Source of the DNA: Gonocerus acuteangulatus
Taxonomy: Eukaryota; Arthropoda; Insecta; Hemiptera; Coreidae
Direction: 5' to 3'
DNA: 64,000 nucleotides
NCBI GenBank assembly: GCA_946811695.1
Contig: OX328123.1
Location: forward strand, 17,016,213-17,080,212
The position numbers were made by a program, and so were the translations under genes. Shown piece by piece: positions 3,768 through 60,800 of the stretch (position 1 is its first letter; each line of letters opens with the position of its first letter). The notes under the pieces are model-generated. The model saw only the letters and a list, made by a program, of their open reading frames with translations. It searched no databases and was not told the DNA's origin.

Positions 3768-4422
3768 CTAGCTGTTACCCGGTGTACCATGCTTCGCCTA
3801 CTTTCTGCATCTAGAAAAGCAAAAATAACTTATAAGTAATATTCAAACCCAATAAAGCAAATCTGTAACTATTTGGGTTTATAGTTTCGAACCCGTGACA
3901 TCTGAACTGTGAGTCCTACAATATTTTAACCTAGCCTATGGCACTCCCCGGATCAAGGCCTACATTTATGCCAAGTTTGATCAAAATCGGTCGAACTGTG
4001 TGGATGTTTATAAGGTGCAATCATACAAACAGACATCTGGTAGATGTTTTTGACCTAGCCTATGGCCTTCCCCATATCAAGACCTACCTGTGTGCCAAGT
4101 TAGGTCAAAATAGGCCAACCGGTGTGGATTTCTATATTGAACAATCATACAAACAGACAACTGGTAGACTTTTTTAACCAAGCCTATGATATCAAGTCCT
4201 GCAAGTGTGCCAAGTTTGATCAAAATCGGTCAAACGGTGTGGATTTGTATAACGAACAAACAAACATACAGACAGCTGGTCAACGTTTTTGACAAGCCTA
4301 CGACGCTCCCCGGATCAAGATCTACCTGTGTGCCGAGTTTGTTCAAAATCGGTCAAACGGTTTGGATTTGTATATGGAACAACCAGATAATTAGGCAAAT
4401 ACGTGATTTTTATATATATAGA
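3768..4422 (-). mobile_element. Non-autonomous Helitron with internal ~120-bp repeats
   Basis: On the minus strand the 5' end is TCTATATATATAAAAATCAC and the 3' end is GTAACAGCTAG|T, i.e. the Helitron rules (5' TC, 3' CTRR, AT host site, no target duplication). The interior carries about four diverged ~120-bp units, each with the motif GATCAAAATCGGTCAAACGG and an AACAATCATACAAACAGAC-like segment. No coding capacity. A related element lies at 60390-60800 in the opposite orientation. Confidence 0.8.
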
Positions 4423-4852: not shown

Positions 4853-6014
4853 CTAGCCGAATACCCGTGCTTCGTCACGGCAGAAACGTAGTTATTTAAT
4901 TGCGGTAAATAATGTATCATCAAAATTAACGCTAATACATAATTGTTTGCAGTTTATTATAGCACGGTTTCCGTCATACTATATTTGATACATCAATTGT
5001 TAAGTAATCAAAGTATAATGTTTCTTGACAATGGGGCTCTCTGGCCAGTGCCAAGAAACAGATAACCTAGAGATAACCCGTTATCTATAGGTCACCAGCA
5101 TGGGCTTATATAAGGGTGGCTACAGCCCCCACCCCCTCCGACATTTTGATTTTATGGTAAAAATATGTCTTAAAACCCTTAAAAATAAATTAAATAAGAT
5201 CACTTAGTTCATAAAAAATATTTAATTTAAGTTGTAATAGCGTTTTATTTGCCCAAAACAATTCGAAGTTTTAAACTGTCAGTATTCCATACACCGAAAA
5301 TGTTCCCAGCCCCCCCCGCGAAATTTTCCTAGCCCCCCCGGGAAATTTTCCCAGCCCCCCGAAATTATTTCCAATAATTAACGCACATGGTTACCAGTAA
5401 CAGCAGTGTAACCAATACAGGTTAAATTTCGTTGTTAATAATAAATTAAAATTTATTCGTTGTTAAAATTTATTTTTCTCATATGTCATTTGGAAACACC
5501 CATTATATTTGCGAGCACGACCAAGAGGTGTTCTAACTGGGGATCCTGATGGGTGGGGAGGCTGTGAAGGGTTCGGGATATTATTACCTCGGATGGACCA
5601 TCACCAAGTATAGCGAAAACTCTATAGTGGACAAATTGAAATGAACCGCAATTAAAATGGTGAATTTGTCCCTCATAGCGTAAACTCTATGAAGGACAGT
5701 TTATTTCAACCTCAAACAAAAATAAAACTTTGAAGAAGATAATGTACGGTAACAGCTGTTCTTTATCGTCCTAGCAACGCATGCTGCCTAGGCTTGCCTG
5801 CTCTAACCAACTAAAACTCTAAACCCCTCTAAAAATACTTAAAAATTGGAATATCAAAAAATCCTTTCTTAGCGAGCGTCTACGTTCTATGGGGAGTGTC
5901 CATGCAAAATTTCAAATTATTCTGTCGAGTGGTTTGGGCTGGGCGATGATAGGTCAATGAGTGAGTCAGTGAGTGAGTGAGTGAGTGAGTGGTATTTGAC
6001 ACATATATAGTAGA
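4853..6014 (-). mobile_element. Non-autonomous Helitron, copy 1
   Basis: Minus strand: 5' TCTACTATATATGTGTCAAA and 3' GACGAAGCACGGGTATTCGG followed by CTAG|T. A GTGA tetranucleotide run lies just inside the 5' end (5960-5990). The element at 38834-39985 is its close relative over the full ~1.15 kb. No open frame of note. Confidence 0.85.
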
Positions 6015-17110: not shown

Positions 17111-18246
17111 AAAATACGCTTAACACAAACAAGTATGAAATGTTTTCTCAATAAGAATAAAATATTAATCAGATTTGAGAATAAATTGACACCGAGATTG
17201 GTCTAGACAAAAATATCATCATTAAAGAATAAATTTTAAAGGTAACACTTACAGTTTTGAATAAATATCTGTGAACTGTACCTACTAGAATTTAGTAAAG
17301 TAGGTTAAACGTCCATTTCCTCTGATTGACATTTATTCGACTTAGCAAAAATTGAAATAAATGCGTTTTACTAAATTGAACCTGAACTTGAGGAAGACAA
17401 ATAAATGAAATGTAAAGTTGGCCTCGGGGGAACTTAGACTTAATCAAACTCCTCAAGTTGTAGGTTTAATTTAAGTTTTGGATTTAGTCGGACAAGATGT
17501 AGATCTCAATCCAGGGATTTCTAAACTTCTCAAACTCCAAGCGCTAAGACTGTACACGTGACGATGTAGATATGGAGAACAATGAGTTTGCTACTTCTGA
17601 CTTAATAAAGTTCTTTTGTAGTAAACTTTTTCTTACAGAGGAAATTTTATCCTTGACCTTGGGCGATCCATTGACTTCTCACAAAAATTAATTATGAATT
17701 ATTGTTCAGTTTGACAAACAAGTCAAAGAAGGCACTTTCCTTTGATGCTTATTTATAATAGCACTTTATTATAGGAAGTAACAATTGAGATTCTCATTAT
17801 TTGAACATTTTATCGTCAACAAAACGTTCTTGGACATATACAAAAACAGAATCCCAATCAGTAACGTAATGACTGTATATCTTGAATGTAAAATTACATG
17901 ACATACCAGGATCTTCAAGCCGAATCTAAGAGATATGTAACAGATAAATGGCAAGAATCCTGGTACAACACGACTGACAACAAGCTTCGAGAAATCAAGC
18001 ACACAGTACAGGAATGGTCATCCAGTAAAAGACCAAATAGACGTGAAGAAGTAGTTTTATGCCGTCTAAGGATTGGCCATTCACGACTGACACATTCCTA
18101 CATTATGACCAGACAAGACAGACCGACATGTACATACTGCAATACTCACCTAACAATAAAGCACATACTGACAGAGTGTAGACTCAGGACAAATTTTAAA
18201 TTACCCCACAATTTGACTGACTTACTTTCCGATAATAGCCAGTACA

Positions 18247-18411
18247 GCCAACGGCCATAGCCACGTTGAATGCACCGGTTCCTATAGATCACCGAAGTTA
18301 AGCAACGTCGGGCGTGGTCAGTACCTGAATGGGTGACCGACCACGTGCTGTTGGCATTAGAAAAGGGTGGCAACCTGTAGATAGCCCGGCGCTAATGACC
18401 AAGATGAAAAA
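18247..18411 (+). mobile_element. 5S-rRNA-derived SINE (SINE3 type)
   Basis: The first ~113 bp resemble 5S rRNA throughout: GCCAACGGCCATAGCCACGT start, GATCACCGAAGTTAAGCAAC (A box/IE), GGGTGACCG (C box), GTGCTGTTGGCA end, with diverged arms. It continues without break into AAAAGGGTGGCAACCTGTAG, then CCCGGCGCTAATGACCAAGA and a short A-tail. Target duplication AATAGCCAGTACA at 18234-18246 and 18412-18424. A fused tail, A-run and target duplication mark a retroposon, not a 5S gene. Confidence 0.9.
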
Positions 18412-18424
18412 AATAGCCAGTACA

Positions 18425-18589
18425 GCGGGGTCTTCCGTGGTCTAATGGATAGCGCCTTGGATTCATAAGCGGGAGATGGTGGGTTCGATTCCCAACCTCC
18501 GGCAGGAATATTATCATCCCACGGCTCGCTGGTAAAATTCCTCACTGCACCCTGGATGTCGGCGCTAATGACCTAGATGTAGATGCACC

Positions 18590-18652
<63 letters not shown>
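18425..18652 (+). mobile_element. tRNA-derived SINE (family A) inserted beside the 5S SINE
   Basis: Head TCTTCCGTGGTCTAATGGAT, B box GGGTTCGATTCCC, family A body, tail CGGCGCTAATGACCTAGATG, TAGATGCACCG and about 60 A. Bounded by AATAGCCAGTACA on both sides (18412-18424, 18653-18665), the same target sequence used by the 5S SINE. Confidence 0.95.
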
Positions 18653-18656
<4 letters not shown>

Positions 18657-18999
18657 GCCAGTACATTGTTGAAATCATTAACTACCTCATGCATACACAT
18701 CTATACAACAAAATTTGAAAAAGTTAAAATAACGAAAGCCATTTGGTGAATTGGATTTTTTGAGAAATAATCCAACAAAAAGATATTCTCTTTTTGTTGG
18801 ATTAATGTAACGAAACAGACTGTAACAAAACACTTAACAATACACAAAATAATCAACAGACAGAACATTTAAAACACACATAATCAACAGACGGATACTT
18901 TTCTGTCAATCTTTAATTAGGAACGAAGAACAAAGCCGTGGTTTTGTCACCAAATGGTGAAAAAACTAAAATAATATAAATAAATAAATAATCAATGAA

Positions 19000-21468: not shown

Positions 21469-22871
21469 TTATAGTATCATTATTGGTGCCTCTATTGATT
21501 TAGTATCTTAAGGATCATGAATTACTAAATGGCGAGTTGAAAGGATTCCTAGCTATCTTGTGTAGCGCTATAGTATCATTATCGGTGCCTTTATTGGTTC
21601 AGTATCTTAAGGATCATGAATTACTAAATGGCGAGTTGAAAGGATTCCTAGCTATCTTGTGCAGCGCTATAGTATCATTATCGTTGCCTTTATTGGTTCA
21701 GTATCTTAAGGATCATGAATTACTAAATGGCAAGTTGAAAGGATTCCTAGCTATCTTGTGCAGCGCTATAGTATCATTATGGGTGCCTTTATTGGTTCAG
21801 TATCTTAAGGATCATGAATTACTAAATGGCGAGTTGAAAGGATTCCTAGCTATCTTGTGCAGCGCTATAGTATCATTATCGGTGCCTTTATTGGTTCAGT
21901 ATCTTAAGGATCATGAATTACTAAATGGCGAGTTGAAAGGATTCCTAGCTATCTTGTGCAGCGCTATAGTATCATTATCGGTGCCTTTATTGGTTCAGTA
22001 TCTTAAGGATCATGAATTACTAAATGGCGAGTTGAAAGGATTCCTAGCTATCTTGTGCAGCGCTATAGTATCATTATCAGTGTCTTTATTGGTTCAGTAT
22101 CTTAAGGGTCATGAATTACTAAATGGCGAGTTGAAAGGATTCCTAGCTATCTTGTGCAGCACTATAGTATCATTATCGGTGCCTTTATTGGTTCAGTATC
22201 TTAAGGATCATGAATTACTAAATGGCGAGTTGAAAGGATTCCTAGCTATCTTGTGCAGCACTATAGTATCATTATCGGTGCCTTTATTGGTTCAGTATCT
22301 TAAGGATCATGAATTACTAAATGGCGAGTTGAAAGGATTCCTAGCTATCTTGTGCAGCACTATAGTATCATTATGGGTGCCTTTATTGGTTCAGTATCTT
22401 AAGGATCATGAATTACTAAATGGCGAGTTGAAAGGATTCCTAGCTATCTTGTGCAGCACTATAGTATCATTATCGGTGCCTTTATTGGTTCAGTATCTTA
22501 AGGATCATGAATTACTAAATGGCGAGTTGAAAGGATTCCTAGCTATCTTGTGCAGCACTATTACTATAGCGCTGCACAAGATAGCTAGGAATCCTGATAC
22601 TATAGGCACCGATAATGATACTTCATTATCGGTGCCTTTATTGGTTCAGTATCTTAAGGATCATGAATTACTAAATGGCGAGTTGAAAGGATTCCTAGCT
22701 ATCTTGTGCAGCACTATAGTATCATTATGGGTGCCTTTATTGGTTCAGTATCTTAAGGATCATGAATTACTAAATGGCGAGTTGAAAGGATTCCTAGCTA
22801 TCTTGTGCAGCGCTATAGTATCATTATCGGTGCCTTTATTGATTCAGTATCTTAAGGATCATGAATTACCA
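21469..22871. repeat. 99-bp minisatellite, ~14 copies, with internal inversion
   Basis: Unit includes TCCTAGCTATCTTGTGCAGC, TATAGTATCATTATCGGTGC and AAGGATCATGAATTACTAAA. Units differ by single substitutions. Because 99 is a multiple of three, a 447-codon frame stays open across the array (33-residue hydrophobic repeats, LAILCSAIVSLSVPLLVQYL). A ~66-bp inverted segment interrupts at about 22560-22625, and a ~100-bp inverted copy closes the array at about 22880-22955. No start context, promoter or non-repeat coding flank was seen, so it is listed as satellite rather than gene. Confidence 0.9.
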
Positions 22872-22967
22872 AGTGCTTAAGATACTAAATCAATAAAGGC
22901 ACCGATAATGATACTATAGCGCTGCACAAGATAGCTACGAATCCTTTCAACTCGCCCACTTACCGAG

Positions 22968-25314: not shown

Positions 25315-26340
25315 AATTTCTTATTTATCTTTGTTCATTTACACATTAGTGACATTAGTATTAATAGAGGAGTCAATAGCAGCTAATATATCTAGTACTA
25401 TCTAGTAGTGAAATCGGTAAACTACTAAAATATCAAGAAACAGCCCCTATTTAGCTAAGGAATCTTTGTTAGCCCGCTCTTATGCGGGTCATCTTTGTTC
25501 CTTTACTCATTAGCGACCTTAGTATTAACAGAGGAGACAATAGCAATTAATATATCAAGTACTATCTAGTAGTGAAATCGGTAAACTACTGAAATATCAA
25601 GAAACAGCCCCTAGGAAGCTAGGGGATCTTTGTTAGCCCGCTCTTATGCGGGTCATCTTTGTTCCTTTACTCATTAGTGACCTTAATATTAATAGAGGAG
25701 ACAATAGCAACTAATATATCAAGTAATATCTAGTAGTGAAATCGGTAAACTACTGAAATATCAAGTAACAGCCCCTAGGAAGCTAGGGGATCTTTGTTAG
25801 CTCGCTCTTGTGCGGGTCATCTTTGTTTCTTTACTCATTAGTGACCTTAGTATTAATAGAGGAGACAATAGCAACTAATAAATCAAGTACTATCTAGTAG
25901 TGAAATCGGTAAACTACTGAAATATCAAGAAACAGCCCCTAGGAAGCTAGGGGATCGTTGTTAGCCCGCTCTTGTGCGGGTCATCTTTGTTCCTTTACTC
26001 ATTAGTGAGCTTAGACTTACTAGGTAAAGTACGAGGAAGTTATACATTTTGTAGTGCTATCTAAAAAAAACTTTAGGAAAAATCATAGCGTCTTTGTCAG
26101 GCCGCACCAGGTCGAGGATAGGCGATGTCAGCTTTGTCTCTTTGCTCGTACGTTAGCTTAGACCTACTAGGTGAAGTAGGGGAAAGTTAACAATCTCGTA
26201 CTATTTAGTAGTGAACTAGTGAAACTACTAGAATAACATTAAAAAAACCTCTACATAGCACGACAATTCAGTTGTATACCCTCTTTGTTAGCCCGACCTG
26301 TGCTCGATTGTAGTAGGGAAATGGTTTTTGGCTGCCCGCA
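25315..26340. repeat. 164-bp tandem array, ~5 good copies plus decayed ones
   Basis: CTTTGTTAGCCCGCTC recurs at 25464, 25628, 25792 and 25956, giving a 164-bp period. Each unit has the hairpin CCCGCTCTTATGCGGG and the segment TAGTAGTGAAATCGGTAAAC. After about 26010 units diverge strongly (26100-26340) but keep the TCTTTGTTAGCCCG landmark. Confidence 0.9.
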
Positions 26341-34127: not shown

Positions 34128-34445
34128 ATGGCTTCAACGGAAATCCGTATCATTTTTCGTTATGAATTTAAGCTCGGTTATAGCGCTGCTGAGGCGTGTA
34201 TGAACATTAACACGGCGTTCGGGGAGGGAACGAACTGTTTACCGGTGGTTTTCCAGGTTTCGAAATGGAAATGTTGACCTTGACAACGAGGAGCGAGGAA
34301 GGCCAGAAACCAAGCTTGACAATGACCACCTGAAAGAAAGGGTTGAAGCTTGTCCCTCAAAAAGCACTAGGGAATATGCCAAAGAACTCGGAGTAGGAGC
34401 CACGACAGTTTTAAGACATTTGAAGGAAATTGGCAAGTCCAAAAC
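34128..34445 (+). pseudogene. Mariner transposase N-terminal fragment
   Basis: ATG at 34128 opens RIIFRYEFKLGYSAAEAC and NINTAFGEGT. The frame then shifts, and a second frame continues with ERTVYRWFSRFRNGN, RGRPETKLDNDHLKERVEA and STREYAKELGVGATTVLRHL. This is the paired helix-turn-helix DNA-binding half of mariner transposases. The frameshift falls near 34217. The DD(34)D catalytic half is absent: the reading frame ends in the 3' terminal repeat. About a third of the usual ~345 residues remain, so it is inactive. Confidence 0.9.
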
Positions 34446-34844
34446 TGACATTTCATACGGTACAGCCTGTTATTTCATACGGTTCAGCCTGATATTTCAT
34501 ACGGTACAGCCTGATATTACATACGGTACAGCCTGATATTTAATACGGTACAGCCTGATATTTAATACGGTACAGCCTGATATTTCATACGGTACAGCCT
34601 GATATTACATACGGTACAGCCTGATATTACATACGGTACAGCCTGATATTTAATACGGTACAGCCTGATATTTAATACGGTACAGCCTGATATTTCATAC
34701 GGTACAGCCTGATATTTCATACGGTACAGCCTGATATTTCATACGGTACACCCTGATATTTCATACGGTACAGCCTGATATTTAATACGGTACAGCCTGA
34801 TATTTAATACGCTACAGCCTGATATTTCATACGGTACAGCCTGA
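34445..34844. repeat. 22-bp satellite derived from a mariner terminal repeat, ~18 copies
   Basis: Unit TATTTCATACGGTACAGCCT GA, with small variants (TTTAATACGG, TTACATACGG). The same sequence occurs once, inverted, at the other mariner end (32837-32861), which shows the source of the unit. Confidence 0.9.
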
Positions 34845-35060
34845 TATTTAACTACCCTACACATTTCGCACCATTTTGGTGCCACTTCAACTACTTCGAT
34901 AACGAATTAAACAACATTTGCAAAATATTAATAAAGGAGAAAATAGAACAGCGTTGGCTTACCATACTATAAAATAGGATGTTATTTAGACTTTTAAAAT
35001 ATTGTACTATCAGAACAAGAAAGAAGTAGAATATTAGAAAGTTTAAGGAGAACAGCCAAA

Positions 35061-38833: not shown

Positions 38834-39982
38834 CTAGCCGAATGCCCGAGCTTCGTCACGGCAGATAAGTAGTTATTTAATTGCGTTAAATAATGTATCA
38901 TCAAAATTAACGCTAATACATAATTTTTTGCAGTTTATTATAGCACGGTTTCCGTCATACTATATTTTATACATCAATTATTAAGTAATCAAAGTATAAT
39001 GTTTCTTGACAATGGGGCGCTCCGGCCAGTGCCAAGAAACAGATAACCTAGAGATAACCCGTTATCTATAAGTCAGAAGCATGGGCGTACATAAGGGGGA
39101 GGGGGCTGAGGGGTCTGCATCCCCCCCTACGACATTTTGATTTGAATGTGAAAATGTGTCTTAAAACCCTTAGAAATAAATTAAATAAGATCACTTAGTT
39201 CATAACAAATATTTAATTTAAGTTGTAATAGCGTTTTATTTGCCTAAAACTATTCGAAGTTCTAAACTGTTAGTATTCCATACCCCGGAAATGGTCCCAG
39301 CCCCCCCCCCCCGAAATGTTCCTAGCCCCCCCGAAATTATTTCTGATATATGCCCATGGTTACTAGTAACAACAGTGTAACCAATACAGTTTAAATTGTG
39401 TTGCCAATAATACATGTATGTTAAAATTTATGGTTCTCATGTCATTTGGAAAGACCCATTATATTTGCGAGCACGACCAAGAGGTGTTCTGACAGGGGAT
39501 GCTGATGGGTGAGGAGGCTGTGTGAGAGTTCGGGATATTATTACCTCGGATGGACCGTCAACAAGTATAGCGAAAACTCTATGGGGGACAAATTGAAATG
39601 AACCGCAATTAAAACGGTGATTTTGTCCCTCATAGCGTAAACTCTATGAGGGACAGTTTATTTCTAGTAATTCAAGGACTGCCATCATAGTTGAAATTAA
39701 CCTCAATTAAAAATAATACTATAAAATAGATAATGTACGGTAACAGCTGTTCTATTATCGTCCTAGCAACGCATGCTGCCTGGCTTGCCTGCTCTAACCA
39801 ACTAAAACTTTAAACCCCTCTAAAAATACTTAAAAATTCGAATATCAAAAAATCCTTTCTTAGCGAGCGTCTACGTTCTGTAGGGAGTGTACATGCAAAA
39901 TTTCAAATTTTTCTGTCGAGTGGTTTGGACTGGGCGATGATAGGTCAGTGAGTGAGCGAGTGGTATTTGACAAATATATAGT

Positions 39983-39985
<3 letters not shown>
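38834..39985 (-). mobile_element. Non-autonomous Helitron, copy 2
   Basis: Minus strand: 5' TCTACTATATATTTGTCAAA and 3' GACGAAGCTCGGGCATTCGG then CTAG|T. Nearly collinear with 4853-6014. Its 5' end abuts the (TA)n that precedes the hammerhead array. Confidence 0.85.
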
Positions 39986-40032
<47 letters not shown>

Positions 40033-40086
40033 AAATAGGAAAACCAACAAACTCCAAGGTCTCCACCACAAATGATTTATTTTATT

Positions 40087-40137
40087 CACCAACAAAGCAT
40101 GCTTTCGGAGTCTACAGCTCCATCCTCAGTGCTTGTG
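40087..40137 (-). ncRNA. Hammerhead ribozyme motif, unit 1
   Basis: Minus strand: stem I CACAAGCA, core CTGAGGA, one extra T, stem II GGAG/CTCC with 7-nt loop, GAAA, GCATGC, TT, return strand TGTTGGTG. All core positions are present; stem I has one mismatch compared with the best copy. Confidence 0.7.
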
Positions 40138-40284
40138 TAACACTATGCCATTTAGATATTCCAGCCGAAGCCTGACGAGGTCGAAGATTTCTTGACATTG
40201 ATTTGGCTGGACGGTGGTGGTACTGCATCCAAATAGGAAAACCAACAAACTCCAAGGTCTCCACCACAAATGATTTATTTTATT

Positions 40285-40335
40285 CACAAACAATGCATGC
40301 TTTCGGAGTCTACAGCTCCATCCTCAGTGCTTGTG
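40285..40335 (-). ncRNA. Hammerhead motif, unit 2 (probably impaired)
   Basis: As unit 1 with a fully paired stem I (CACAAGCA/TGTTTGTG), but the position that should be U16.1 is A (GCATGCAT instead of GCATGCTT), which would break the pair with A15.1 next to the cleavage site. Confidence 0.6.
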
Positions 40336-40482
40336 TAACACTATGCCATTTAGATATTCCAGCCGAAGCCTGACGAGGTCGAAGATTTCTTGACATTGAT
40401 TTGGCTGGACGGTGGTGGTACTGCATCCAAATAGGAAAACCAACAAACTCCAAGGTCTCCACCACAAATGATTTATTTTATT

Positions 40483-40533
40483 CACAAACAATGCATGCTT
40501 TCGGAGTCTACAGCTCCATCCTCAGTGCTTGTG
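40483..40533 (-). ncRNA. Hammerhead motif, unit 3 (probably impaired)
   Basis: Identical to the unit 2 motif, including the A at position 16.1. Confidence 0.6.
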
Positions 40534-40680
40534 TAACACTATGCCATTTAGATATTCCAGCCGAAGCCTGACGAGGTCGAAGATTTCTTGACATTGATTT
40601 GGCTGGACGGTGGTGGTACTGCATCCAAATAGGAAAACCACGTCAGGCTTCGGCTGGAATATCTAAATGGCATAGTGTTA

Positions 40681-40731
40681 CACAAGCACTGAGGATGGAG
40701 CTGTAGACTCCGAAAGCATGCTTTGTTTGTG
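40681..40731 (+). ncRNA. Intact type I hammerhead ribozyme motif, inverted unit
   Basis: Stem I CACAAGCA (40681-40688) pairs at all 8 positions, one G-U, with TGTTTGTG (40724-40731). Core CTGAGGA 40689-40695; an unpaired T 40696; stem II GGAG/CTCC 40697-40700/40708-40711; GAAA 40712-40715; palindromic GCATGC 40716-40721, which with the flanking A and T gives a self-complementary AGCATGCT suited to dimer formation; U16.1 and H17 at 40722-40723, predicted cleavage after 40723. The one departure from the canonical core is the extra T before stem II. Confidence 0.8.
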
Positions 40732-40779
40732 AATAAAATAAATCATTTGTGGTGGAGACCTTGGAGTTTGTTGGTTTTC

Positions 40780-40847
<68 letters not shown>

Positions 40848-40859
40848 TGCTCTGACGGA

Positions 40860-42055
40860 TTTAGGAACGTTGCCTTCAGTAAATAAAAACCAGTATTATT
40901 CTTACGGAACGGACAGAAAAACAAATCCTACAGACAGAATGTTAAAACGTAAAAATAAACAAATACGTTACTTTTCCAAAGGCTTACGATCAACAATATT
41001 TGCTGGTTAAATAAACGGACAAAATGACAGAACTGGTAAAAAAGGATTTCCCCGGTTGCCATGAAAGGTTTCTTGTCATTCATGTAAACGAGTATTTCCT
41101 GGAAGGACCTATTCGATAGTCAGCGAATCCACTACACCAACAACCGTATCAAGTTGCCAAGTATTTTAGGCTAGGAGCTCTCGGTGAGGGCGAGATAAAA
41201 AAATGAAAAAAAGTCAATTATATATAAATAATTGTATACATTAGTAATTCAATGACAAATGTAGATTAAATTTAATAGGTCATTTGCAATCTTAAATAAA
41301 TTTTTCTCTTTAAAAAAAAACTCTTTTCTTTTCCTGTCATAAAACCGCTCTGATCTTACCCGACCTTCCTATTCCCTTCTTAGTGGGCACTCATTGGTAT
41401 TTATAGCCCGTTCAATTAGATGAAATAGTTCAAGTCCCGCATGCGCGAAATTCTGCGGGAATTATTCCCGACGGGTCTGCCATTTGCATTACTATATTAA
41501 TAAACAACACGTTACGTGAAACTCAATAAAAAATGACTTTGTCTCTTTTGGGACAAGGGAAGGCTATAAGAGGTCAGGTAAGTGATATTCGTTTAATATT
41601 TATCAATACTTAGTCAAAGCTAAGACTAAAAACAATTTAAACTATAACATTGCCTGTTCAAATAGACTGTAAGAAGGAGGGAAAAAGGCGTGGCCTATAT
41701 TCCTGGTAAAAAATTGGCGGGAAAATTCTCTCAGTCATAACCTTATCACTATGAAATTTAAAACGTTTTCAGCCTTATCTCCCTTATTTAAACTCTCAAA
41801 GCGTCCCCTAGTCTTAAACGAGACATAATGAGTTTTTATAGTGATTCACGTTAAGTGTTTGATCATTAAAAGGCTTTGCGGATGGCGGATCAGAAGGAAG
41901 AGTGCAGGGGAAATCCCCCCCCCCCCCCGACAGTCCCATGCTAGCTAAATTGACTCCTGGGTTTGTTTGAACACGCTATAGTATAGTTATAATTAAATAT
42001 TTAATAAAAACATTATTATTGTCTGTTCATTTGTATTTATTTCAGTTCAAATTTT
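40860..42055. other. Unassigned sequence
   Basis: No gene or repeat recognised; a C-run lies at 41918-41928. Confidence 0.4.
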
Positions 42056-47006: not shown

Positions 47007-47524
47007 TTACATATGTATAATTTTCTTAAAGTTGTAAGTATCACAGAAAAATATTTTTGGGGAATTTGAGTTGTTTATCTGTTATATTATATGTTTTGAA
47101 GGAATTTTTATTTTTGATGTTTCTTACTTAGTTTTACATTTCTCTGATGTATGTAATATTTTGAAGCCAACTTTCCACTTCAGCATTCAAAAAACGATTA
47201 TTGAGTTTCGAAAAATCGTTTTCTTTACCAGTATTTAGAAGACATTTAGAACTTGTAATATCGGCTGTTATCTCAAAATCGTAAAAATAGTTGTTTTGAT
47301 TCTAGACGTCTCAAATAAAGATGGCCTTCATTGATTTATCGCTTTATGTATATACCTATCTTTTTGATACATCTAGTAATTCTCTGATTGTGTCAATGAG
47401 TTGAACTTCTTTCCTCCACATCACATCATCAAAGAAACGTATTTCGATTTCGGTTGAGTTCAAATGTTATTATCTTGTGTAAAAAATAATTACATAATAT
47501 TAAAAATAAATAAACGACCAATAC
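47007..47524. other. Unassigned; start of the receptor intron
   Basis: Read on the minus strand, 47524 downward is intron sequence from donor GTATTG. No further receptor exon was found anywhere below this point in the window. Confidence 0.5.
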
Positions 47525-47821
47525 CTTGAAGACCTCCCAGGTTGCCGAGAAAGGGAGCACGACGAGCCCAACCAGAAGATCGGCCACCGCTAGAGAGACG
47601 ATGAAGAAGTTGGTGACGGACTGTAGTTTGGACGACATGCAGACAGCCAGGATGACGAGTACGTTTCCTGCGACTACCATCACGTCGACGATGTAGAGGA
47701 GAACTAAGAGGACGATCCTGAGAGGGTCACCCCAAGGTACTGATTCCATTAGTGCAGAACAGGCTGTCCTGTTCATACCCACTCCTCCGACACCCATCTC
47801 AACCCATTCCAATATCACCAC
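47525..47821 (-). CDS. Oamb: Octopamine receptor (OAMB/alpha-1-adrenergic-like), exon with TM1-TM2
   Basis: A class A G-protein-coupled receptor exon of 297 bp, phase 0 at both ends: acceptor TTTGTGTTTTGCAG before 47821 and donor CAAG|GTATTG after 47525. Residues: short extracellular segment with an N-glycosylation site (NRT) and [11 protein letters not shown]1 [20 protein letters not shown] with the class A Asn; ICL1 [10 protein letters not shown]2 [20 protein letters not shown] with the conserved LAVADLL Asp; then [11 protein letters not shown]. The block [35 protein letters not shown] is that of insect OAMB receptors, which couple octopamine to calcium signalling. The WIFGD...TM3-DRY part must be in the next exon, not seen. 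GC content is well above the flanks and no stop interrupts it, so it looks functional. It may be a first coding exon (ATG at 47797 or 47776) or preceded by another. OAMB is favoured over other amine receptors by the SATWEVFK segment. Confidence 0.88.
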
Positions 47822-48244
47822 CTGCAAAACACAAACATCAGGAGAAATTAGTATATTTCAAAGGATAATCGAACACTTGGGTCTTTATAGTCTATTTAAA
47901 TCATTGTAAATCATAATTAATTGTGTTAAATGTGTCAATGTGCAGAAATTACAGACTGTCGAAGAAGAGAAGTAGAAAAAAAAAAATCGGTTCGTTATAT
48001 ATTCGTTAATATCATACTGTGGGTACTCTCCAGAACGAAATTAATTAAATTTGTGTGATTAATAATTAAAAACTCTGTTCATTACAAGTATGATAAGTAA
48101 ACAACTTGCAAAGTGAAATATGGTATACAAATGAAACATAGATTTACAAATATAAAAAGCATAGTTAGCATAGAGGACCGATGGCTCCGAACAAAATTTC
48201 CATCAGGGCCCAAGTCTTCCTTTTGTATAGTTATTTTGGCAAAC

Positions 48245-58610: not shown

Positions 58611-58681
58611 ATGCAAACTAATCAAAATGGAAAAAGAAAATATATGTAAATATACTAAAAAAAACTACCACGGAAGCCCAC

Positions 58682-59945
58682 GTGGGGTCCGCTCAGACCC
58701 CAAAGCCGTTTTTCAACAAAAAATAATCAATTTGAGGCGCGGGCTATCCTTTATGAGCGATTTGACACTGCCGATCTCCGGAGCACTACTTGGTAAGAAG
58801 CTACTCAAAGAGCAGGAAGGTAGAGATACGGTGGCTATAAGAGAGGGGGGAATAGTGTGCGTGGGGTCCGCTCAGACCCCAAAGGCGTTTTTCAACAAAA
58901 AATAATCAATTTGAAGGGTGGACTATCCTTTATGAGCGATTTGACACTGCCGATCTCCGGAGCACTACTTAGTAAAAAGCTACTCAAAGAGCAGGAAGGT
59001 AGAGATACGGTGGCTATAAGAGAGGGGGGAATAGTGTGCGTGGGGTCCGCTCAGACCCCAAAGGCGTTTTTCAACAAAAAATAATCAATTTGAAGGGTGG
59101 ACTGTCCTTTATGAGCGATTTGACACTGCCGATCTTCGGTGCACTACTTAGTAAGAAGCTACTCAAAGAGCAGGAAGGTAGAGATACGGTAGCTATAAGA
59201 GAGGGGGGAATAGTGTGCGTGGGGTCCGCTCAGACCCCAAAGCCGTTTTTCAACAAAAAATAATCAATTTGAGGCGCGGGCTATCCTTTATGAGCGATTT
59301 GACACTGCCGATCTCCGGAGCACTACTTGGTAAGAAGCTACTCAAAGAGCAGGAAGGTAGAGATACGGTGGCTATAAGAGAGGGGGGAATAGTGTGCGTG
59401 GGGTCCGCTCAGACCCCAAAGGCGTTTTTCAACAAAAAATAATCAATTTGAAGGGTGGACTATGCTTTATGAGCGATTTGACACTGCCGATCTCCGGAGC
59501 ACTACTTAGTAAAAAGCTACTCAAAGAGCAGGAAGGTAGAGATACGGTGGCTATAAGAGAGGGGGGAATAGTGTGCGTGGGGTCCGCTCAGACCCCAAAG
59601 GCGTTTTTCAACAAAAAATAATCAATTTGAAGGGTGGACTATGCTTTATGAGCGATTTGACACTGCCGATCTCCGGAGCACTACTTAGTAAAAAGCTACT
59701 CAAAGAGCAGGAAGGTAGAGATACGGTGGCTATAAGAGAGGGGGGAATAGTGTGCGTGGGGTCCGCTCAGACCCCAAAGGCGTTTTTCAACAAAAAATAA
59801 TCAATTTGAAGGGTGGACTGTCCTTTATGAGCGATTTGACACTGCCGATCTCCGGAGCACTACTTAGTAAGAAGCTACTCAAAGAGCAGGAAGGTAGAGA
59901 TACGGTAGCTATAAGAGAGGGGGGGAATAGTGTGCGAGGGGTCCG
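58682..59945. repeat. 179-bp satellite, 7 copies, inside piggyBac
   Basis: Unit begins GTGGGGTCCGCTCAGACCCC and includes GAGCGATTTGACACTGCCGA and CAAAGAGCAGGAAGGTAGAG. TGGGGTC/GACCCCA makes a 7-bp hairpin in every unit. Two variants alternate (GAGGCGCGGGCTATCC and GAAGGGTGGACTATCC); unit 4 is like unit 1, which suggests amplification of a higher-order block. The 75-codon frames repeated here are products of the array. Confidence 0.95.
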
Positions 59946-59976
59946 CCTAGACCCCACGTAGTCGACGGAGGGTTAA

Positions 59977-60389: not shown

Positions 60390-60800
60390 AAAACTGTTTG
60401 TCTGTATGTTTGTTTCTTAACAAATCCACACCGTTCGATACATTTTGACCAAACTTGGCAGAAAGTTAGGTTTTGATCCGGAGAGTGTCATACGCTAGGT
60501 CAAAAACTTGTACCATTTGTCTTTTTGTATGTTTGTTCCTTATACCAATCCACACCTTTTGACCGATTTTGACCAAACTTGGCACACAGGGAGGTCTTGA
60601 TACGGGGAGTGTCATAGGCTAGGTCAAAAACGTCTACGATCTGTTTGTCTGGCTATTTGTTCCTTATAAATATCCTCACAGTTTGACCAATTTTCAACAA
60701 ACTTGACACACATTTAATATTACATACATGGTTTCTAATTTATTTCGGCTATTCTAGATGCAGAAAGTAGGTGTAGAAGGGCATGCCGGGTAAGAGCTAA
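60390..60800 (+). mobile_element. Non-autonomous Helitron fragment
   Basis: Three diverged units with GACCAAACTTGGCACACAG, GGGAGTGTCATAGGCTAGGT, CAAAAACGT and CTTATAAATATCC correspond to the repeats in 3768-4422. The 3' end GGGCATGCCGGGTAAGAGCT followed by AA and (TA)n fits Helitron 3' CTAA. The 5' end was not located. Confidence 0.75.

Follow-up and report, generated by a model that had tools for sequence, protein, structure and literature searches.

The window analysed here, a stretch of 64,000 nucleotides, contains a locus in which three direct 198-bp units and one inverted partial unit lie between (TA)n tracts, and the question raised by such a layout is from what sequence the unit derives and by which route it was multiplied and inserted. 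An earlier note on this DNA had proposed a candidate retrozyme, namely tandem units carrying type I hammerhead ribozymes with no protein gene, and had named the terminal repeats of Penelope-like elements (PLEs) as the alternative. The tandem arrangement was confirmed by TRF, which returned a 198-bp unit in 3.1 copies with 99% matches at 40029-40640, and by a repeat search, which found three copies of the unit with inverted arms reaching to 40785. The unit has a GC content of 43.4%, and its two full copies are identical in sequence. Positions within the unit are given as u1-u198, u1 being the start of AAGCAC. The first, terminal partial unit carries T16.1 and a TTGGTG stem I strand; at u39 and u45 its sequence departs from that of units 2 and 3, and the inverted arm is of a third type. 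The coordinates of the features are collected in table 1.

Table 1. Features of the array locus, in positions of the window.
Feature	Position	Strand
(TA)n tract, left flank of the insertion, AT-rich target	39982..40030	.
Terminal partial unit, exon-2 positions 106 to 1; outer end of the u106 type (reverse-transcription start type)	40029..40134	-
Full 198-nt exon-2 unit: leader with hammerhead-like motif and first ~33 PLE codons; A16.1	40135..40332	-
Second full exon-2 unit	40333..40530	-
Partial unit, exon-2 positions 89-198, 5' end of the direct arm	40531..40640	-
ACCA, 4-nt overlap at the head-to-head meeting of both arms	40637..40640	.
Inverted arm, exon-2 positions 152-198	40637..40683	+
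Inverted arm, exon-2 positions 1-102; outer end likewise of the u102-106 type	40684..40785	+
(TA)n tract, right flank of the insertion	40782..40845	.
Exon-exon junction GTGTTACAC/AAGCACTGAGG	40134..40135, 40332/40333, 40530/40531	-
Exon-exon junction GTGTTACAC/AAGCACTGAGG	40683/40684	+
Hammerhead-like motif, best copy, T16.1, predicted cut after 40723	40681-40731	+
Hammerhead-like motif, unit 1, one stem I mismatch, T16.1	40087-40137	-
Hammerhead-like motif, A16.1, expected inactive	40285-40335	-
Hammerhead-like motif, A16.1, expected inactive	40483-40533	-

The further genomic copies that the earlier note had called for were found when the genome (1.1 Gb, 135 contigs) was searched with the unit: there are at least 233 matches (40 of 954 candidates scored), and the motif is kept in 113 of 132 exon-2 copies. 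Together with the window, 37 loci around the listed matches (L009-L045) form the set of 38 loci used below, a sample picked by similarity to the window. Several of these loci contain an open frame of 903 codons from stop to stop. At L019 the frame read from ATG encodes 887 residues (protein P0001), with an RVT_1 match at E=2.5e-12 and a GIY...YIG motif recognized by eye, Pfam giving no report of GIY-YIG there. Relatives of the protein have 24-37% identity among the 40 matches listed, of which one is annotated in Diabrotica balteata (31%); no PLE relative was confirmed in viral contigs, and no solved structure matched the protein at E<=0.001. The units encode codons 2-33 of this ORF, and where the junction is of the spliced type, the protein match of array loci ends at residue 32-34, that of L034 at residue 29. 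Judged by these sequence matches, the 198-nt unit is exon 2 of a PLE, consisting of a ribozyme leader and the first approximately 33 codons. The match to PLE exon 2 ruled out a stand-alone retrozyme with a sequence of its own. Thus, of the retrozyme reading, the tandem units and the type I hammerhead-like motif stand, but the unit is a PLE exon and no canonical hammerhead was detected. There is indeed no complete gene at the locus, where the PLE ORF with its RT and GIY-YIG, present in the source copies, is absent, but the statement that no protein gene is involved has to be amended, since the units hold PLE codons. The PLE alternative had pointed to the right source, an intact PLE with matching exon 2 being found elsewhere in the genome.

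The limits of the exon can be read by comparing PLE copies and arrays. In PLE copies exon 2 starts at ...TTTTTCTATGCTGTAG/AAGCACTGAGG (CTGTAG/AAGCAC) and, near codon 33, the sequence continues as ...GTTACAC/GTGAGAATATT (TTACAC/GTGAG). The arrays read ...GTTACAC/AAGCACTGAGG instead, with the exon end joined bluntly to its own start; the joint has no overlap, and the missing piece would start with GT and finish with AG. A survey of the places that follow GGAATATCTAAATGGCAT (...GGCAT), allowing up to two mismatches at the 38 loci (n=105), yielded the exon-exon junction at 90 places distributed over 21 of the 38 loci, a run-on into the ORF as GTGAG at eight places (six loci) and a third form, GGCATA/TGCTGTAG, at seven places, all at L034. 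The older, diverged copies at L025, L026 and L028 have the identical junction type.

The sequence AAGCAC is preceded, in different copies, by the intron end CTGTAG, by the leader GAACTGG, by its own exon end TTACAC or by a foreign sequence, which ends in TTATTACAG and is joined at the exon-2 acceptor base in both arms of L027. With four upstream sequences meeting at one base, a splice acceptor is the simplest reading, and the sharing of this acceptor by the 35-nt leader and the foreign sequence makes it probably a real splice site. The leader was counted in 25 copies (up to four mismatches). In 18 of them the ORF stands before it and GTGGGT (17 copies) or GTGGGG (one copy) after it; in the other seven the ORF is lost at AGTCTACGGG (within 2 nt) and AAGCAC follows. 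At the point where the leader starts, the ORF sequence reads TCAGTC, which we take to be an arthropod-type initiator.

Two of the loci deserve a separate description. L027:2740-3470 is a PLE-type insertion that has a 12-bp duplication and the foreign, exon-like sequence in both arms; it may represent two copies of one chimeric host transcript. L034:1880-3440 consists of the leader, eight units and the non-splice junction GGCATA/TGCTGTAG with a 2-nt overlap. With its leader, non-splice junction and divergent units, it looks like the copy of a linear multimer. Its non-GT-AG junction and divergent units imply that arrays can arise in another way, and L034 suggests a second, independent route to nearly the same unit.

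The outer ends of the insertions fall mostly at u~101-106 or at u~141-150, that is, at two positions 40 nt apart, in AT-rich DNA. Among 24 two-armed inserts 20 could be classified, and in 17 of them a u106 end is combined with a u146 end (p=0.003); the insert in the window, with u106 at both ends, is one of the three exceptions. The pairing of one u106 with one u146 end per insert looks as though each DNA strand had been allotted one of the two start sites. Target duplications were examined at 17 loci. Exact AT-rich duplications of 12 bp are found at L010, L014, L015 and L027, and one of at least 12 bp at L012; that at L034 measures 12 bp by eye and 8 bp by script. No clear target duplication was found at L025, L028 and L041, while L009, L011, L013 and L016 have on one side something other than an insertion end, and L017, L026, L043 and the window are set in simple repeats. 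With (TA)n on either side of the insertion, no target duplication can be read in the window.

According to the available text of PMC11167929, the PLE protein of the anole cleaves both strands of AT-rich DNA, and its reverse transcription starts inside the template, at two adjacent sites, which define a tail; the two end positions observed here, 40 nt apart, resemble this pair of starts. Inverted arms and a 31-bp tail are described for Adineta Penelope (PMC3846280, as far as available). In view of the double-strand cutting and internal starts of the former and the inverted arms of the latter, the simplest account of the inverted unit of the window is that it forms the second arm of a PLE-type insertion made from two sides, rather than a separate ribozyme unit. 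A satellite spread by DNA recombination alone was ruled out by the element-type ends and the duplications; block duplication is nonetheless seen, in that the large nested palindrome of L029 and the repeated block of approximately 11 units at L033 were probably generated by later duplication of the array at the DNA level.

The 5' ends of the arms were read by hand for 32 array arms at 18 loci, a set without the older copies (L025, L026, L028) and without the additional nested arms in L029. They are distributed uniformly over the unit (KS p=0.95); one of the 32 adjoins u1, none reaches the leader in the spliced-type arrays, and none lies within 3 nt of the 5' product end predicted for hammerhead cleavage. 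The last result disfavours linear hammerhead cleavage products as the main template. Of the nine arms that do contain leader sequence, eight end at its first bases, as judged by eye. A Fisher test of these arms against the array arms was set aside as biased, the former having been selected for their leader. The units within an arm may be nearly uniform, as at L036 (no change in 634 nt) and in one arm of L030 (two changes in 787 nt), or variable, as at L031 (eight positions in 722 nt) and L032 (five in 938 nt). Tandem units, splice-type junctions and random stops are what an endless circle copied by an internally starting enzyme predicts.

As to the ribozyme, the layout proposed for the inverted unit was borne out, with stem I, core, stem II, GAAA and the predicted cleavage site all in place; the motif was also recovered in all three direct units, on the minus strand, and A at position 16.1 was verified in units 2 and 3. 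In the best copy, an 8-bp stem I that bridges the exon-exon junction is followed by CTGAGGA, an extra T, a 4-bp stem II with a 7-nt loop, GAAA, GC-AT-GC, T16.1 and T17. Features to be added to the earlier description are the unpaired T between A9 and stem II, U17 and a stem III of just 2-3 bp. The Rfam search that the earlier note had recommended yielded no canonical hammerhead: there was no match to the hammerhead families at gathering level in the whole window, nor at E<=10 within 39900-40900. The miRNA-type Rfam matches obtained in the latter interval were dismissed, as they reflect the inverted repeat and the TA runs. A scan of the window with the core-plus-stem-II pattern gave six occurrences in 64 kb, four of them at the array, so that the motif by itself is not very rare. 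The other two (20062 and 20398) belong to a different, duplicated sequence reading CTGAAGA...GAAA and are probably due to chance. Folding of single units, in four stretches, was uninformative (best z -1.34), the minimum-energy folds being different from the hammerhead.

Comparison of the exon-2 copies adds information on how well the motif is kept. The 113 of 132 copies referred to above match the core, stem II, GC-NN-GC and U16.1; in the failing ones stem II is broken (five copies), the core or stem III pattern is off (12) or A16.1 is present (two, both in the window and the only such cases among the 132). In the same 132 copies, variation in the core columns affects 2.4% of locus-sites compared with 2.8-3.2% nearby, so that selection on the hammerhead core is not clearly visible. 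Across seven contexts compared, stem I reaches eight contiguous pairs only in the exon-exon copies of the window with TTTGTG, while it has four pairs in window unit 1 and in leader/exon or intron/exon B copies (for subtypes A and B, see below) and two in A copies. In the older copies L025 and L028 the core reads CTGATGATGG, presumably the commoner hammerhead core. The motif can be read as a minimal hammerhead of PLE type, perhaps decayed or helper-dependent; for the anole PLE hammerhead, cleavage is reported in the accessible part of PMC11167929 only with the protein added.

The window contains other repeats. At 18200-18670 a 5S rRNA-like stretch (Rfam, 64.8 bits) is followed by a tRNA-like stretch, recognized by eye, and by a run of 63 A; ATAGCCAGTACA occurs three times around the 5S- and tRNA-like stretches, and the whole looks like two SINEs, 5S- and tRNA-derived, at one insertion site. 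ARAGORN found no tRNA gene in the window. At 21470-22880 approximately 14 copies of a 99-bp repeat are open throughout as a frame of 458 codons. Further tandem arrays are present at 58681-59956 (179 bp), 25327-26014 (164 bp) and 34445-34849 (22 bp), and the hammerhead-like pattern scan of the window detected none of its occurrences in these three. The stretches 3924-4382 and 60394-60712, near the ends of the window, seem by eye to be one repeat family with a period of 124 bp in opposite orientations. An exon-like frame at 47429-47857 presumably resembles an amine (dopamine-type) receptor.

With regard to the origin of the arrays, we lean, with some reserve, towards a non-coding insertion made by the PLE, which would have copied a circle of back-spliced exon 2 by rolling-circle reverse transcription. 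Exon 2 would be back-spliced to a circular RNA of approximately 198 nt; the PLE reverse transcriptase, starting within the template rather than at a 3' end, would prime from both cut strands and copy the circle lap after lap, leaving tandem units with random stops, and the two arms would then be joined, often through short overlaps. The hammerhead, which the observations do not require, may cleave multimers or assist the re-formation of circles from array transcripts. Several observations weigh against this reading. The window has three types of unit (unit 1, units 2-3 and the inverted arm), where one simple circle would give identity, and the differences at u39 and u45 and the third-type arm would suit template switching or transcription from an older array. 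The variable arms of L031 and L032, the two u106 ends of the window, the non-splice junction of L034, the block duplications at L029 and L033 and the lack of a clear duplication at L025, L028 and L041 also count against it. Random arm ends would fit leaderless transcripts of older arrays as well.

How often such arrays were founded is suggested by two exon subtypes, A (196 nt, CCTATTATGATG) and B (198 nt, CCTATTTGGATG), which are separated by six linked columns and both of which occur as arrays, that in the window being B-like. The full 196-nt exon with G at u191 is identical in the PLE copies L020 and L021 and in 20 units of the L029 array, and that with T at u191, a position 7 bases from the junction, is identical in L018, L019 and eight units of L033. 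Independent founding of arrays is likely on this comparison, with the qualification that recombination between array and PLE could mimic the matches and that the N-terminal frame of a B-type PLE is absent among the 38 loci.

Splicing might have founded the family only once, and array transcripts might since then have been cut by the hammerhead, circularized by a ligase and copied as circles by the PLE. A length of 198 nt, 43% GC and a tandem layout fit metazoan retrozymes as they appear in the available part of PMC7229834; conservation of the motif in 113 of 132 copies, the way in which the exon-exon junction completes stem I of the best copy and the heterogeneity of the window units, as if derived from an array transcript, point in the same direction, and circles made in this way are also compatible with random arm ends. 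We consider such a cycle unlikely, however, in view of the missing Rfam match (gathering level in the window, E<=10 in 39900-40900), of a core that is hardly more conserved than its surroundings (2.4% versus 2.8-3.2%), of A16.1 in two window units and of the correspondence between differing array subtypes and differing PLE subtypes, which speaks for repeated founding.

The same splice sites as in the circle model could be used in a linear transcript of tandem PLE copies, the codon-33 donor being spliced to the next acceptor to give an mRNA with many copies of exon 2, which would then be reverse transcribed. Tandem copies exist, as at L019 with exon 2 at 2578 and at 5674, and at L034 the eight tandem units are preceded by a leader whose start coincides with the 5' end. 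However, the leader is reached by 0 of 32 spliced-type arms, yet eight of the nine leader-bearing arms end at its first bases; the units are nearly identical within many arms, and arms of 20 units would demand tens of kb of transcript, so that linear exon repetition appears improbable. Slightly lower still is the probability that we assign to template jumping or a DNA-level deletion of the PLE body, from codon 33 to the next leader, followed by unequal crossing-over, with the GT-AG limits being coincidental. A non-splice junction of this kind is present at L034, nine bases upstream, and DNA-level block duplication occurred in L033 and L029; against it, the common junction is blunt, lacks overlap and fits GT...AG (an estimated chance of approximately 1 in 256 per junction), the acceptor is common to the leader, and the junction recurs in two subtypes plus the older copies.

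A back-spliced exon-2 circle copied by the PLE may be compared with the systems already described. Spliced transcripts were copied here, whereas PLEs are noted for intron retention. The source copies resemble canonical Penelope/Poseidon PLEs (PAc of Anolis, PMC11167929; Adineta Penelope, PMC3846280; both as available) in having an ORF with RT and GIY-YIG-type domains, and share with them the pseudo-LTR with a hammerhead-like motif, the optional tail of 30-40 nt, head-to-head arms and AT-rich targets; target duplications are of 8-10 bp in Adineta (PMC3846280) and of 12 bp at those of the present loci where they can be read. Unlike canonical PLEs, the window element has no ORF and consists of repeated exon 2 only, with a splice-type junction. 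With metazoan non-LTR retrozymes, in the accessible parts of PMC7229834 and PMC7761336, it has in common short tandem units, a type I hammerhead-like motif and a low GC content; its 198 bp and 43.4% GC fall within their size and composition (~150-450 bp, GC <45%). The same two sources state that metazoan retrozymes co-occur with PLEs, which are named there as no more than candidate movers, and what hammerheads do in PLEs is described as a mystery in PMC7761336. Retrozymes have a canonical type I hammerhead with tertiary contacts between loops I and II and are free of coding content; by contrast, the motif here is a minimal one of PLE type with no Rfam match in the searches described above, the sequence of the unit is nearly that of the PLE exon, codons included, and the founding junction is splice-like. 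The nearest precedent for the putative template is given by circRNA-derived pseudogenes, which likewise have exon ends in back-splice order, absent from the parent gene, and are taken to be reverse-transcribed circular RNA (PMC5345220, available text). Unlike them, the present arrays contain an exon of the retroelement itself, in tandem many-lap copies at many loci and with the reverse-transcription starts of that element. Small PLE hammerhead variants, reportedly found by Lunse et al. in 2017 to cleave as dimers, have the type I layout and a minimal stem III in common with the motif described here, but lack the extra U after A9, G7 and U17.

In the literature on PLEs, hammerheads and retrozymes, circRNA and exon repetition, as far as its texts were accessible (subscription journals being mostly outside), neither a back-spliced PLE exon nor rolling-circle copying by a PLE was found. 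The wider proposition, to which we attach an even chance, is that a PLE back-splices its own ribozyme exon and copies the circle internally from both cut strands, repeatedly seeding retrozyme-like satellites, so that retrozymes could be escaped PLE exons in which the hammerhead later took over the making of circles. The copies of spliced PLE transcripts bear on the question of a sense or antisense template, left open in PMC3846280 in the part available. Within one genome a retrozyme-like repeat is tied to an intact PLE by near-identical sequence, end positions and target preference. An exon circle with internal initiation would be a concrete way in which a PLE could give rise to tandem ribozyme repeats, and it hints at how some of those found in animals originate and what moves them.
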